Source of the DNA: Oscillospiraceae bacterium
GTDB lineage: Bacteria; Bacillota; Clostridia; Oscillospirales; Oscillospiraceae
Reading direction: 5' to 3'
DNA length: 64,000 nt
Assembly (NCBI GenBank): GCA_009787625.1
Contig: WQSX01000009.1
Coordinates: 1-64,000 of the forward strand
Part shown: positions 2,891 to 9,174 of the stretch, one piece after another
Layout: each line of letters begins with the position of its first letter
Position numbering within the stretch: position 1 is the stretch's first letter
Translations under genes and position numbers: made by a program
Notes under the pieces: model-generated
What the model saw: only the letters and a program-made list of their open reading frames with translations
Database searches by the model: none
What the model was told of the DNA's origin: nothing

Positions 2891-3451
2891 ATGATTGGTA
2901 GCATAAACTTTAACCATAGCTCACACCATGTAAGCAAGCTTGGTCACACGGCAATCAATGCGCATAATGCAACTTTCCCTGCACATGAACTTACAGCACC
3001 ATCGCAAATCCCTCAAAACGCAATAGCAGGTGGTTTGCTCGGCGGTGGAATGTCTGCTTTTATTTTCAAACCCGACGACTTTTCTTCGGAAAACCCGATA
3101 TTGATTGCAAGAGGGTTTGATGCACAGGGTGAGCCGTTTGAGAAGGAAATAAGCATACGAGATATAGATAAGCGAAATGCTTCCACTGTAGAACTTTTTG
3201 CGCTCGAAGGTTACTTTGGTCTGAGCGGAGGCCCCACAGGAATGACCAGGGCGGCAATAGTATCTATGGCGGAGCAAAATCAACTCGGCATAAATGATAT
3301 TTTCAAAAAGTTTGACTTCCTGTCAGCTTTGGAAGATATAATGGATTCACAGCGTTTCCACGGCAACTTAAACGGACTGCTGAGGAACAGGACGCTTTTT
3401 GAGTTTCTTTTGGATTTCCCAAATACGCAAGGAACTTCATGGGCGAAGTAA
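2891..3451 (+). CDS. Hypothetical protein, 186 residues
   Basis: The ATG at 2891 follows GAGGAGAA at 2876-2883. The protein begins MIGSINFNHSSHHVSKLG, has no signal peptide, one Gly-rich segment (NAIAGGLLGGGMSAF, residues about 43-57), then a mixed alpha/beta stretch (FKPDDFSSENPILIARGFD) and helices. I do not recognise the family. The low-complexity His/Asn/Ser start resembles that of the preceding gene in character. It is the last gene before a new promoter at 3533. Confidence 0.65.
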   Translation: MIGSINFNHSSHHVSKLGHTAINAHNATFPAHELTAPSQIPQNAIAGGLLGGGMSAFIFKPDDFSSENPILIARGFDAQGEPFEKEISIRDIDKRNASTVELFALEGYFGLSGGPTGMTRAAIVSMAEQNQLGINDIFKKFDFLSALEDIMDSQRFHGNLNGLLRNRTLFEFLLDFPNTQGTSWAK

Positions 3452-3532
3452 GGACAGGTGGGCGGCACTTTGGAGTGGATTATTGCGGTCGAGTGTTTAT
3501 AAAGCCGAGTTAATTCATTTCAAATTATCTTA

Positions 3533-3560
3533 TTGACATTTCAAAGATTTAGAGTATACT
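3533..3560 (+). promoter_or_regulatory. Sigma-A promoter of the DUF3800 RNA/gene locus
   Basis: TTGACA (3533-3538), 16-bp spacer, TATACT (3555-3560). Transcription should begin near 3567, about 95 nt before the DUF3800 start codon, so the structured segment at 3569-3634 is transcribed. Confidence 0.75.
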
Positions 3561-3566
3561 TATGTT

Positions 3567-3645
3567 AATGTGATTTATCACACTGGGCTGGTCGAAAGAC
3601 CCTGGTCCACCGCAGGCGGGGGGTTCTCCCCGCCATTTTCTTTTC
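3567..3645 (+). ncRNA. Structured RNA upstream of DUF3800 (DUF3800-motif-like), ending in a terminator-like hairpin
   Basis: The transcript begins with a 5-bp hairpin (3569-3573/3578-3582), followed by a GNRA-capped stem GGTCGAAAGACC (3590-3601). A second GGTC (3604-3607) could pair with the same GACC, allowing a switch or pseudoknot. A strong stem follows (GGCGGGG 3615-3621 with CCCCGCC 3628-3634) and then ATTTTCTTTTCTTT, which looks like an intrinsic terminator placed before the gene. Candidate RNA motifs named DUF3800-I and so on have been described upstream of DUF3800 genes; I cannot assign this one to a class by eye. Promoter, RNA, terminator and gene in this order is also the layout of type III toxin-antitoxin loci. 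Confidence 0.6.
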
Positions 3646-3660
3646 TTTGAGGAACGCAAA

Positions 3661-4341
3661 ATGAAACGCATCTTGAATCTTACGGTAGATGAGTCGGGTG
3701 ATTTTGGCAGTTATGAAAAACATTCACCATACTACCTTATTGCAATGGTTTTTCACGATACTAAAAATGACATTGATACTGCGGTGCAATTATTGGATAC
3801 CCAAGTTGCCAACTTAGGGTTTAAAGCTCACGCTATACATACCGGACCGCTTATCCGACGCGAGGGAGTTTATAAGAATCTCAGTATAGATGAGAGAAAG
3901 AAATTGTTAAATGCACTTGTACATTTTAACCGCCGTGCTGATGTGTCGTATGCGGTTATAGGTGCTGAAAAGAATAAACTAAATGATGTTATAGACCTAA
4001 CAAGTAAATTATCAAAACAAATTAAAATCTTTACCCAAAAGCACATCTCATTTTTTCAGCAATATGACGAAATAAATGTTTACTACGATAATGGGCAAAT
4101 TGAGTTAACGAAACTGCTTACATCTACCTTGAGCGTGTTACTGCCTAATATATCTTTTCATCGTGCGATGCCGTCCGATAACAAGCTATTTCAGTTAGTA
4201 GATATGTATTGCTCGCTAGAACTCGTGGCGATTAAATTCGATGCGAAAATATCTTCAAACTCTGAGTTGGAATTTTTCCATAACTATCGCACATTTAAGA
4301 AAGATTATCTTAAAAAAATACGGTATAAGCGGATTTTATAA
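3661..4341 (+). CDS. DUF3800 domain protein
   Basis: The 226-residue protein opens with LNLTVDESGDFG, the DExG-type acidic motif typical of DUF3800, and has LFQLVDMYCSLELVAIK near residue 182, matching the conserved Q-x-x-D region of the family. DUF3800 proteins are predicted to have an RNase H-like fold; their biochemical activity is not firmly established and they often occur in mobile and defence regions. The ATG at 3661 has a weak GAGG site at 3649-3652. It has its own promoter and leader RNA and no co-oriented partner, followed by a 470-bp gap and a toxin-antitoxin pair. Confidence 0.8.
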   Translation: MKRILNLTVDESGDFGSYEKHSPYYLIAMVFHDTKNDIDTAVQLLDTQVANLGFKAHAIHTGPLIRREGVYKNLSIDERKKLLNALVHFNRRADVSYAVIGAEKNKLNDVIDLTSKLSKQIKIFTQKHISFFQQYDEINVYYDNGQIELTKLLTSTLSVLLPNISFHRAMPSDNKLFQLVDMYCSLELVAIKFDAKISSNSELEFFHNYRTFKKDYLKKIRYKRIL

Positions 4342-4806
4342 CGGTTAAAATCTCTTTGAACGGATTGCTCGTCAGTAAAAGTAATCAAGACATTAAGGCA
4401 AAATGTGCTGTAGTACGAGATTTTATAGCGAGTGCAATTGCCTTAATATCTTTTCCCATTATACTTGTTGTGCTATTGTCAAGAGTAGTATTTTTTCTTG
4501 TCTGAACTGGCGGAGTCTTCGGGCGGGAGCGAATTTTCCGACAACAAAAAATCTCCACTCGTGACAAGGTGGGTGCAGTGGAAGTCGGAAGTCGTGAGAA
4601 TTTTAAGCCGTTATGCCGAGCGTGGCGAATTGAATAGCCTTTAGTCAATAATCCCCATAAGCAGGGCATTTGAAGTGCCGAAACTTATGGGGATTGTTTG
4701 TGTTTTTCCTGTTTTTGAAAAGTTCCTCTTGACAAAAACCCAAAGTGATTATAACACATCATGAGCCTATGGGGCAATGTTTTTAAGCCTCGCATTAAGT
4801 ATTCTG
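4342..4806. other. Gap without a supportable gene
   Basis: No frame here has coding character, a ribosome site or recognisable similarity. The only clear structure is the hairpin at 4650-4695. The left half probably holds decayed mobile-element sequence. Confidence 0.5.
4650..4695 (+). terminator. Long hairpin, possible terminator
   Basis: A perfect 12-bp stem (AATCCCCATAAG 4650-4661 with CTTATGGGGATT 4684-4695) encloses a second small stem (GGCA/TGCC) and is followed by GTTTGTGTTTTT. It could terminate transcription arriving from the DUF3800 gene, or be the remnant of a mobile-element end. Confidence 0.5.
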
Positions 4807-4868: not shown

Positions 4869-5144
4869 GTGATTATTAAGTCTTCAACTTCTTTGAGAAA
4901 CGATTATGGAAACATATCGGCACTGGCGCACGAAGTAGGTGAGCCAATTTATATCACCAAAAATGGTGAAGGGGATATTGTAGTCATGAGTATCGAAGCT
5001 TTTGAAAAACGCGAACAATTAATGATGCTAAAAAGCAGACTCGCAATGTCAGAATACTCTTTAGCAAACAACGAGCCAACCGTCTCCTTGGAAGAAGCTC
5101 GCAAGCGGTTGGAGGCAAAATACAATGCAAAAATACAAAGTTGA
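4869..5144 (+). CDS. Antitoxin, Phd/YefM family (pair 1)
   Basis: The 91-residue protein starts at GTG 4869 after GAGAGG. The N-terminal half (SLRNDYGNISALAHEVGEPI, then TKNGEGDIVVMSIEAFEK) is the Phd/YefM DNA-binding fold; the C-terminal half (SLEEARKRLEAKYNAK) is the helix expected to wrap the toxin. It neutralises the overlapping downstream toxin and represses its own promoter, which carries a perfect palindrome. The gene overlaps the toxin start by 20 bp, so translation is coupled. Confidence 0.85.
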   Translation: MIIKSSTSLRNDYGNISALAHEVGEPIYITKNGEGDIVVMSIEAFEKREQLMMLKSRLAMSEYSLANNEPTVSLEEARKRLEAKYNAKIQS

Positions 5145-5448
5145 ACTGCTTGCTCCCGCATGGAATGACCTTGACGCAATCTCTGATTTTCACATGGAAA
5201 CAGTGGGGCCAAAATCCGCAAAAAATATCACAGATAAAATATTAACAGCCCTAACTAGGCTGGAGCTGTTTCCTCTTTCCTGCCCACTCGCACCATACCA
5301 AAACCTTGCAGATCAAGGCTATCGCATTTTAGTGTACGGTAGCTACTTGTGTATCTACAAATTGCTGGGAAACGCAGTTTTTGTATACCATATCGCGGCA
5401 GGCGCATCAAATTACCCCGCCCTTTTCGAAACCAGCGAAGAAAATTGA
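5125..5448 (+). CDS. Toxin, RelE/ParE superfamily (pair 1)
   Basis: The 107-residue protein (MQKYKVELLAPAWNDLDAIS at the N-terminus, later LADQGYRILVYGSYLCIYKL) shows the plasmid-stabilisation RelE/ParE layout: two helices, then a sheet around an Arg (YRIL). RelE members cut mRNA on the ribosome and ParE members poison gyrase; the sequence alone does not decide which. It starts inside the antitoxin gene. Length and motifs are intact, so the pair is probably functional. Confidence 0.85.
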   Translation: MQKYKVELLAPAWNDLDAISDFHMETVGPKSAKNITDKILTALTRLELFPLSCPLAPYQNLADQGYRILVYGSYLCIYKLLGNAVFVYHIAAGASNYPALFETSEEN

Positions 5449-6945: not shown

Positions 6946-9174
6946 ATGAAAAAACAATGGACGGGATTTAGAAGCGGAAATTGGGAACGCGAGATTGATG
7001 TCAGGGAGTTTATTCAGCTCAACTACGTACCATACTCAGGAGATGAAAGTTTTTTGACAGGTCCAACAGAGGACACAGAGAAACTTTGGAAAGACATCTT
7101 AGAACTCACAAAAATCGAAACAGAAAAAATCGTGCTCGACGTAGAGACAAAAACGCCCTCGACGATTACAACATACGGTCCCGGCTACATAGATAAACGC
7201 AGGGAAAAAATAGTAGGCGTTCAAACAGATAAGCCGCTCAAAAGAGCAATAATGCCGTTTGGTGGGTTAAATGTGGTGAAATCCGCACTCAGCTCATACG
7301 GCTACGAGTTGGACAAAGAAACTGAAAAAGTTTTTGACACATACAGAAAAACCCACAACGAAGGAGTTTTTGACGTTTACACGGAAGAAATGCTAAGAGC
7401 ACGCAAAAGTGGTGTCATAACAGGCTTGCCCGATGCTTACGGGCGCGGCAGAATCATCGGCGACTACAGGCGCGTTGCACTTTATGGCACAGATTTTCTG
7501 ATAGAACAAAAACAAGCCGAGAAAAAAGCACTCGACTTTTCGCAGATGGACGAGGCGACAATTCGTCTGCGTGAGAACATCAGCGACCAAATAAAATCAC
7601 TCCATGAACTTGCAGAAATGGCAAAATCATACGGCTTCGACATCTCTCAGCCTGCCGCAACTGCACAAGAGGCGATACAGTGGACATATTTCGGATTTCT
7701 GGCGGCAATAAAGCAGCAAGACGGTGCGGCAATGAGCCTCGGCAGAGTGTCAACATTCCTCGACATCTATGTTGAGCGGGACCTCGCAAACGGCACGGTC
7801 ACAGAGTCGCAGGTACAAGAACTATTTGACCACTTCGTCATGAAGCTACGCATGGTGAGATTCCTGCGAACACCCGACTATAACGCACTGTTCTCAGGTG
7901 ACCCGACATGGGTGACAGAAGTTTTGGGCGGCATGAGCGAGGACGGTCGCACACTCGTCACAAAGAGTTCATTTCGTGTCCTGCATACACTGTACAACTT
8001 AGGACCTGCACCCGAACCAAACCTTACGGTGCTATGGAGTGTAAATCTCCCAAGGGCATTTAAAGATTATTGCGCAAAAGTTTCAATAGACACAAGCTCA
8101 ATCCAATACGAAAGCGACGACCTGATGCGCGGATTCTGGGGCGATGATTACGGCATAGCCTGCTGTGTGTCGGCGATGCGTTTAGGCAAGCAAATGCAGT
8201 TTTTCGGTGCAAGGGCAAATCTTGCAAAGGCGTTGCTCTATGCAATAAATGGCGGCAAAGACGAAAAAACAGGTACGCAAGTCGGACCTGAGTTTGCCCC
8301 AATTACAAGCGAATATTTAGACTACGATGAGGTTGTGAGACGCTTCGACCAAGTGATGGAGTGGCTCGCAGGTCTATACATCAGCACATTAAATGTAATC
8401 CACTACATGCACGACAAATATAACTACGAGAGCCTACAGCTCGCCCTGCATGACAAAGACGTACTGCGAACTCAGGCGACAGGCGTTGCAGGACTAAGTG
8501 TTGTCGTAGACTCGCTCGCGGCGATAAAATATGCAAAAGTAAAGGCAATCCGCAACGAAGAGGGCCTGGCAATCGACTACGAGGTGGAGGGAGAGTACCC
8601 CGCATTCGGAAACAACGACCCCGAAATCAACAAAATGGCGTCAGACTTAGTAAAGAACTTCATGACCCGTCTGAAAAAGCACAGTACCTACAGAGATGCC
8701 ATGACCACAACGTCTATTCTCACAATAACATCAAACGTGGTTTACGGTCAAAAAACAGGTGCAACTCCCGACGGCAGAAATGACGGCGAGCCTTTCGCAC
8801 CCGGCGCAAATCCAATGCACGGCAGAGATAAAAAGGGCGCAATCGCTTCTCTCGCCTCGGTGTCTAAGCTCCCATACAACTACGCACTGGACGGCATTTC
8901 CTATACATTCTCAATTATTCCAACTGCACTGGGCAGGGCAGTAGAGGACAGGATAAACAACTTAGTCGGCATTATGGACGGCTACTTCGCAGACGGCGGT
9001 CACCACATAAATGTAAACGTGTTCGACCGTGAAACACTACTCGACGCAATGGAAAAACCCGAACTCTACCCACAACTGACAATCCGAGTTTCAGGCTACG
9101 CAGTAAATTTCGTAAAACTGACAAGAGAGCAGCAGTTGGATGTTATTCACCGCACTTTCCACGAACGAGTGTAG
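6946..9174 (+). CDS. pflB: Formate C-acetyltransferase (pyruvate formate-lyase)
   Basis: PFL converts pyruvate plus CoA to acetyl-CoA plus formate using a glycyl radical, in the cytoplasm of anaerobes. I place the start at ATG 6946 because GAAAGGAA (6931-6938) precedes it; an in-frame ATG at 6916 would put that site inside the gene. The 742-residue protein has the catalytic Cys pair in GIACCVSAM (Cys406-Cys407) and the radical Gly in RVSGYAVNF (Gly717). All key residues are present and the length is normal. It follows bioY by 37 bp and its activase lies 200 bp downstream. Confidence 0.97.

Follow-up and report, generated by a model that had tools for sequence, protein, structure and literature searches.

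The window analysed here is a stretch of 64,000 nucleotides (positions 1–64,000, forward strand) of contig WQSX01000009.1 in assembly GCA_009787625.1, from a gut Oscillospiraceae bacterium. Near its beginning, a gene for a DUF3800 protein is preceded by a promoter, a short structured RNA and a terminator-like hairpin. The following features were assigned:

3533..3560, + strand: promoter, with TTGACA at 3533–3538, a 16-nt spacer and TATACT at 3555–3560 (11 of 12 consensus matches)
3569..3582, + strand: P0, 5'-terminal hairpin of 5 bp with the loop UUUA, from the MFE fold; not part of the Rfam model
3584..3609, + strand: P1, core stem with a GNRA (GAAA) tetraloop, the part common to the phage copies; from Rfam, fold and covariation
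3584..3630, + strand: match to RF02975 (DUF3800-XI RNA), 64.3 bits against a gathering score of 37.8, E = 6.4e-12
3615..3648, + strand: P2 hairpin (3615–3634) with U-rich tail (3635–3648), terminator-like by its T-rich tail; from fold and covariation
3649..3654, + strand: ribosome-binding site GAGGAA, read by eye
3661..4341, + strand: DUF3800 protein of 226 aa, ATG at 3661, a predicted RNase H-type nuclease from PF12686 and a predicted model

The sigma-70-like promoter was the top-ranked of nine candidates in positions 3400–4700, a region for which shuffled sequences gave 4.0 (sd 2.0), and the transcript is expected to start near A3567/3568. The RNA 3567–3640 was folded into three hairpins (P0-P1-P2) at −33.3 kcal/mol (z = −3.32), and one of 200 shuffled sequences was equally stable. 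By fold and covariation, P2 with its tail can be read both as an intrinsic terminator ahead of the gene and as a conserved structural part of the RNA. A first-pass annotation of this DNA had described a strong promoter, a GNRA-capped stem and a hairpin with a U-rich tail directly before the ribosome site, all of which were borne out at the positions above. The two mutually exclusive GGTC/GACC pairings that it had also described were not: the first GGUC has GACC as its partner beneath the GAAA loop and the second belongs to the outer half of that stem, so that both fit one nested, covarying stem and the switch was rejected.

The covariance-model comparison with the Rfam DUF3800 motifs that had been proposed for the leader identified it as RF02975. 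This was the sole match above a gathering score in an Rfam scan of the whole window, and one RF02975 match was present in the source genome. The RNA-gene pair of this locus is already catalogued, as Rfam DUF3800-XI; neither this membership nor the 5' hairpin P0 was in the first-pass annotation. There are eleven DUF3800 RNA classes, and DUF3800-XI RNA was reportedly described by Weinberg et al. in 2017. To our knowledge, no function has been proven for any of these classes, RF02975 included. Approximately 530 nt beyond the DUF3800 gene are genes for a Phd/YefM antitoxin and a ParE toxin (type II; window 4869–5448). On the other side, an ORF at 393–1181 matches a short N-terminal part of the MobA/MobL relaxase profile, which suggests a decayed mobile element upstream of the module.

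Covarying stems in homologous leaders, the absence of which had been named as evidence against the RNA, were found. In alignment A3, comprising 46 diverse leaders, six of the ten P1 pairs and all seven P2 pairs changed on both sides, and for the whole structure all five covariation measures were above 500 of 500 shuffles. In alignment A2, comprising 95 leaders (that of the window and 94 of the 120 distinct copies found with the first search pattern), P2 showed 59 two-sided cells compared to 10.3 in shuffles. Since P1 is held constant by the first search pattern, its covariation is not judgeable on A2 and was assessed on A3 and, for the inner two pairs only, on the phage copies described below. 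Among the 26 copies outside A2 are L039, L107, L116 and L130, Lachnospiraceae leaders in which an additional hairpin separates P1 from the terminator hairpin. Another is L133, which has a P2 mismatch and no U-tract. These five are taken into the count of U-rich tails, which were present after P2 in 62 of the 66 gene-linked copies; both P2 and a U-rich tail were present in 26 of 32 gene-less bacterial copies. P0 was only partly conserved: by shuffling, a hairpin at its position was significant (p ≤ 0.05) in 37 of the 65 gene-linked leaders examined and in 10 of the 35 that lack the gene. No guide-like variable stretch was seen in the RNA: P1 is almost fixed, and variation in the linker and P2 mostly preserves pairing.

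The ORF at 3661–4341 matched PF12686 (DUF3800) with 32 bits (gathering score 21, E = 2.5e-7), and no other Pfam family was found in the protein at E ≤ 0.01. Sequence searches with the protein gave no match to solved structures at E ≤ 1 and none to PADLOC models at E ≤ 0.01. The AlphaFold2 model of the 226-aa protein had a pLDDT of 95.5 and a pTM of 0.91. RNase H-type chains headed the lists of the nearest solved folds, with RNase HII and PIWI among them; these lists were second looks, and a family missing from them (e.g. ToxN) is not thereby excluded. The protein is thus predicted, from a confident model, to have an RNase H-type fold. The acidic residues D10, E11, D143 and D181, candidates for a catalytic role, were invariant in 71 aligned sequences (A4). 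A4 comprised the window's protein and 70 others, namely 59 of the 65 listed proteins (L030, L046, L108, L134, L136 and L138 being left out) and 11 further sequences.

At loci found through the protein, the RNA was located just upstream on the gene's strand in all 23 cases (15 viral, 8 bacterial). The 15 viral loci represent 13 distinct leaders, and the bacterial loci came from 5 of 388 genomes in a sample of one order and 4 of 200 in a sample of one family, eight of them distinct. Model R1 had been trained on 16 of the 23 loci and its E-values are rough; by Rfam alone, the cut-off was exceeded at 12 of the 15 loci in viruses and at 6 of the 8 in bacteria.

When the RNA was used as the starting point, an exact-pattern scan returned at least 137 bacterial and viral copies, at least 133 of them distinct. 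Among the distinct copies the gene was intact in 66, partial or broken in 10 and missing from at least 850 nt of sequence in 35, while 5 had no gene in the less than 850 nt available and 17 were cut by a contig end. The bacterial copies, at least 118, are a sample, and counts hold among the matches listed: the gene was intact in 62, broken or partial in 10 and absent from at least 850 nt of available sequence in 27; a further 5 were without a gene in less than 850 nt, and 14 were cut by an end. Carriers that are in culture include Eubacterium oxidoreducens, Acetatifactor muris and Butyrivibrio sp. NC2007. Among these matches, 37 of the 99 decidable bacterial RNAs had no intact gene, compared to none of 23 genes without the RNA (Fisher p = 1e-4). 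The RNA therefore persists without the gene and the gene was not seen without the RNA, which is the pattern expected of an antitoxin.

In three overlapping genome samples, Rfam matches over the cut-off were found in 5 of 200, 2 of 398 and 5 of 394 genomes, nine of them distinct; two of these nine (G057 and G930) had no DUF3800 gene among the listed ORFs. The sub-cut-off hits L006, L007 and L009 were taken as chance, being G+C-rich and having no DUF3800 gene in their ORFs. One Pseudobutyrivibrio contig (L052) carries a full module as well as a solo RNA, which is on the opposite strand at a distance of about 1.4 kb. For the bacterial modules, 100 of 104 neighbouring proteins (at most two per intact locus; four of at least 900 aa were left out) were scanned, and no third partner common to the modules was found among them. 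Defence genes near the module were few, a count that has no control set. Around the bacterial solos, 77 of 95 listed neighbouring proteins were scanned, giving AAA_21 in six, HTH domains, and RelB in two, again with no control set; phage structural genes were not among the 25 families shown.

The viral copies were collected with a looser second pattern and filtered with model R1, and since R1 rewards pairing, this filter leans to paired stems. A set of candidates was dropped as chance before counting: L178, L179, L187, L188 and L192, which share one sequence (R1 15.8–18.9 bits), and L189, L191 and L204, for which no R1 match was listed and the inner stems were unpaired by eye. A third pattern gave 77 loci, of which two had an R1 match, both weak, and was not used. 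By our estimate, the number of hits expected by chance from the 19-base pattern in the viral set is well below one. The 32 distinct copies that were retained included 7 linked to a DUF3800 gene and 25 without one (solos). PF12686 was found in none of 32 whole virus records at E ≤ 0.001, duplicates being included and some records being fragments; record lengths ranged from 5 to 193 kb. The records are classed as viral by IMG/VR, and several have exonuclease, PhoH, terminase, portal, DnaB or RNA-ligase genes; L020, L180 and L199 may instead belong to other kinds of mobile element.

A same-strand tRNA gene was present within 1 kb of 16 of the 25 solos and of none of the 7 gene-linked viral copies (p = 0.007), although overall the contigs of the gene-linked copies are shorter, which may explain part of the contrast. 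In several cases, for example L021, L181 and L196, the tRNA gene directly abuts the solo RNA. An exonuclease gene (phrog_284) precedes the RNA in five phages. In L015, L027, L028 and L032 the RNA follows by 45–282 nt exonucleases that are mutually only 24–30% identical, and in L025, whose exonuclease is 91% identical to that of L032, it is 1125 nt away. RNA-ligase genes share the phage islands of L200 and L193; RNA ligases are known from tRNA-repair counter-defence. In L199, a solo XI RNA with a U-tract (8697–8758) is found just before DNA methylase and ResIII genes (type III restriction-like). Isolated phages gave no match to the two phage RNA stretches searched, and one relative of the protein was found in each of a plasmid collection and a phage record collection.

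The outer P1 stem of the phage copies is fixed by the search pattern and its constancy is not evidence; the inner two pairs changed jointly, with the combinations UC/GA, CU/GG, CU/AG, CC/GG, UA/UA, AC/GU and UU/GA. Alignment A8 comprised 24 phage copies, 21 of them distinct, and excluded L199, in which the inner stem is closed by a U-C pair; a separate listing of phage P1 held 23 copies, without L028 and L199. In A8 the inner pairs showed 14 two-sided cells compared to 4.5 in shuffles (0 of 500 as high). Paired cells, two-sided cells and the covariation score were each above 500 of 500 shuffles, the count of further pair types was equalled in 26 of 500, and the number of pairs with a change on both sides (two) was not significant (235 of 500 as high). 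P2 was present in all nine phage solos found with the first pattern, each hairpin beating its shuffles at p ≤ 0.056, and was followed by a U-rich tail in two of the nine as against 62 of the 66 gene-linked copies (p = 5e-6). Given this retention with the U-rich tail mostly missing, P2 is probably more than a terminator and belongs to the functional RNA. Judged by these substitutions, the phage RNAs are under structural selection.

Several orphan RNAs were found beside or overlapping P1. The 3' end of cow-rumen-3 RNA (RF03083) aligned to phage P1 in 7 of 20 stretches (E = 2.6e-14 to 0.005), with scores of 70.8 to 28.6 bits, all below the gathering score of 86.7. The matching stretches were L326, L321, L324, L316, L311, L325 and L303, around the solos L201, L195, L198, L183, L176, L200 and L015, respectively. 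By this alignment, the last stem of cow-rumen-3 corresponds to the P1 of DUF3800-XI. Drum RNA (RF02958) was over the cut-off in 4 of 25 records; it adjoins the XI RNA in L032 (3610–3719) and L022, which form one sequence group, and in L182 (3038–3134); in both of these phage groups the two run end to end as if they were one composite RNA. In L196 the drum RNA is about 16 kb from the XI RNA. In L182, L186, L193 and L197 (4 of 15 loci scanned), the tRNA island that holds the solo XI RNA also contains ROOL RNA. Since phage tRNA arrays hold ROOL, drum and cow-rumen-3 RNAs, P1 may serve a phage task unrelated to DUF3800. A literature search for cow-rumen-3 or RF03083 gave nothing relevant, and in the literature covered, which leaves out most subscription journals, no mention was found of the gene-less phage copies or of the cow-rumen-3 overlap. 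A weak match to abiF RNA was also seen in L028 (1616–1652; 26.4 bits against a cut-off of 37, E = 0.012 in 401 nt), ending 10 nt short of the solo XI RNA; it is possibly a second antitoxin mimic, or chance.

Class XI was specific among the 21 PF12686 places listed for the bacterial family: three belonged to it, and at the remaining 18, where R1 detected no class XI RNA at E ≤ 0.01, a class I, VII or IX RNA was present at seven. The second DUF3800 gene of the source genome (G000:C90:1935-2459) has a class IX RNA nearby. In contrast to the class I and XI leaders, the class VII/IX RNAs at L284, L285 and L299 are placed by the 3' end of the gene and, as Rfam orients them, on the strand opposite to it. 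A scan of 13 viral copies of class I RNA gave no solos: ten were with a gene, one had no gene match (the gene looks broken) and two were cut by a contig end. The phage finding may therefore be peculiar to class XI. In Collinsella aerofaciens (NZ_OY725717.1, L171), a distant homologue of DUF3800, with 28% identity and an annotation split over two ORFs, was noted near BREX brxL; it has a different promoter-hairpin-terminator leader, which scored 20.6 bits with R1 (E = 0.0014).

The suggestion of the first-pass annotation that the RNA is the partner or inhibitor of the DUF3800 protein has strong indirect support from the gene-less RNA copies, those in phage contigs among them, and from the gene not being found without the RNA in the samples searched. 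The reading we favour, and hold to be somewhat likelier true than false, is a type III toxin-antitoxin-like or abortive-infection-like module in which the RNA would inhibit a nuclease in trans and the phage RNAs would be its mimics. At the sequence level, it draws on the RNA family, its architecture and covariation, the one-way pattern by which the sampled genes always came with the RNA, the compensatory changes in gene-less phage copies and the predicted RNase H-type fold. The promoter would make an RNA of approximately 70–80 nt with the three hairpins P0-P1-P2. Most transcripts would stop at P2, giving an excess of RNA, and rare read-through would supply the DUF3800 protein. The RNA, chiefly P1 together with P2, would bind the predicted RNase H-fold nuclease in trans and keep it inactive. 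If the short RNA were depleted, for instance when a phage shuts down host transcription, the nuclease would be freed and presumably toxic. Large phages might answer by carrying P1, usually with P2, without the gene, thereby keeping the nuclease silent to their benefit. Within tRNA arrays the ends of the RNA could be released as adjacent tRNAs are processed, as its position suggests. The available text of a Legionella Tn-seq study (PMC7811196) lists a DUF3800 gene, of unstated RNA class, with the strain-specific essential genes, which would be a poor fit with a simple toxin.

An RNA that activates or aims the nuclease as an obligate cofactor, scaffold or guide, with the phage solos acting as decoys that form dead complexes, would make the module an RNP effector comparable to those that use CRISPR or OMEGA RNAs. 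The nearest folds include PIWI, and the gene was found only with the RNA; DUF3800 domains are also found with a Cas12a2 branch and in VI-F/V-A2 CRISPR loci, for which the available text of two reports suggests roles in interference or in crRNA biogenesis or degradation (PMC10910872, PMC12669027). However, no variable guide-like stretch was seen, 37 of the 99 decidable bacterial copies among the matches listed were without an intact gene, and the P2 and U-rich tail kept in 26 of 32 gene-less copies are something for which a cofactor has no obvious need. We consider this explanation unlikely, and an inhibitor fits above an activator because a phage would gain from carrying an inhibitor.

It is more doubtful that the leader acts in cis alone, either through the protein binding P1 of its own mRNA and favouring termination at P2 or through another ligand that sets read-through. 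P1 does abut the terminator before the gene, and the U-rich tail in 62 of 66 gene-linked copies would be expected; yet the 25 viral solos, the lack of a DUF3800 protein in the 32 records searched, the missing U-rich tail after P2 in 7 of the 9 phage solos examined and the 27 bacterial copies (among the matches listed) without a DUF3800 gene in the available sequence all speak against it. Slightly less probable again is an origin of P1 as a phage element that DUF3800 senses or cuts and that the bacterial leader mimics for self-regulation. Such an origin would suit a stem that ends cow-rumen-3 and is present in many phage tRNA arrays, but the target of an antiviral nuclease should drift so as to escape recognition, and phage P1 keeps the bacterial bases while its inner pairs compensate; the 27 bacterial solos among the matches listed would also be left without explanation.

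New in this analysis are the one-way dependence of gene on RNA, the phage solos and their tRNA association, the compensatory changes, the overlap with cow-rumen-3 and the RNase H-type model. The gene-less phage copies turn an RNA and a gene without assigned roles into a directly testable antitoxin and counter-defence hypothesis. More tentatively, at somewhat under an even chance, XI may be a further RNA-neutralised nuclease defence, with large phages of many lineages carrying antitoxin mimics in tRNA and RNA-repair islands and with orphan RNAs like cow-rumen-3, and the drum composites too, serving at least partly in counter-defence. If so, phage tRNA arrays would be places to seek RNA-based anti-defence elements, and the common P1 stem gives a first handle on cow-rumen-3 and like orphan RNAs.

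Among known systems, the closest is Rfam RF02975 itself, which is like the locus RNA in sequence, in the P1 stem and in position before a DUF3800 gene; the Rfam model differs from the locus RNA in lacking P0 and in showing P2 as unpaired. Cow-rumen-3 shares its last stem with XI P1 and differs by an extra 5' domain of about 105 nt, and its matches here were in viral-catalogue contigs. Type III toxin-antitoxin systems (ToxIN, CptIN, TenpIN, AbiQ), as outlined in the available part of one account (PMC5086642), consist of a promoter, an RNA, a Rho-independent terminator and a protein gene. The likeness to these that had been proposed for the locus held in part: at the sequence level the order is the same, whereas the leader RNA is a single copy with no tandem repeats (the type III hallmark) and no direct repeats, and the protein is a DUF3800 protein of RNase H type, by Pfam and predicted fold, instead of a ToxN-type endoribonuclease. 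With no repeats and a different protein, the module would be placed outside the ToxIN superfamily.

Another parallel is offered by AbiF/RCd22, the RNA of which (Rfam abiF RNA, RF03085) was later shown to be a type III antitoxin, according to the portion of the report available (PMC12373285). There too, an Rfam structured RNA with a promoter and a terminator is found ahead of a putative toxin gene; each AbiF leader contains two RNA motifs and the protein is Abi_2, compared to one motif and DUF3800 here. The trait shared with phage antitoxin mimics is an RNA without its protein gene (25 solos, PF12686 in 0 of 32 records, which may be fragments). Phage phiTE carries a gene-less RNA mimic of ToxI, pseudo-ToxI, as given in the accessible text (PMC3475682), whereas the XI copies in phages are many and often in tRNA arrays. 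Racrs are likewise described, in the part of the report at hand (PMC10651486), as solitary copies of defence RNAs in phages without the protein genes; they mimic CRISPR repeats, and in the XI phages the mimicked RNA would be an antitoxin.
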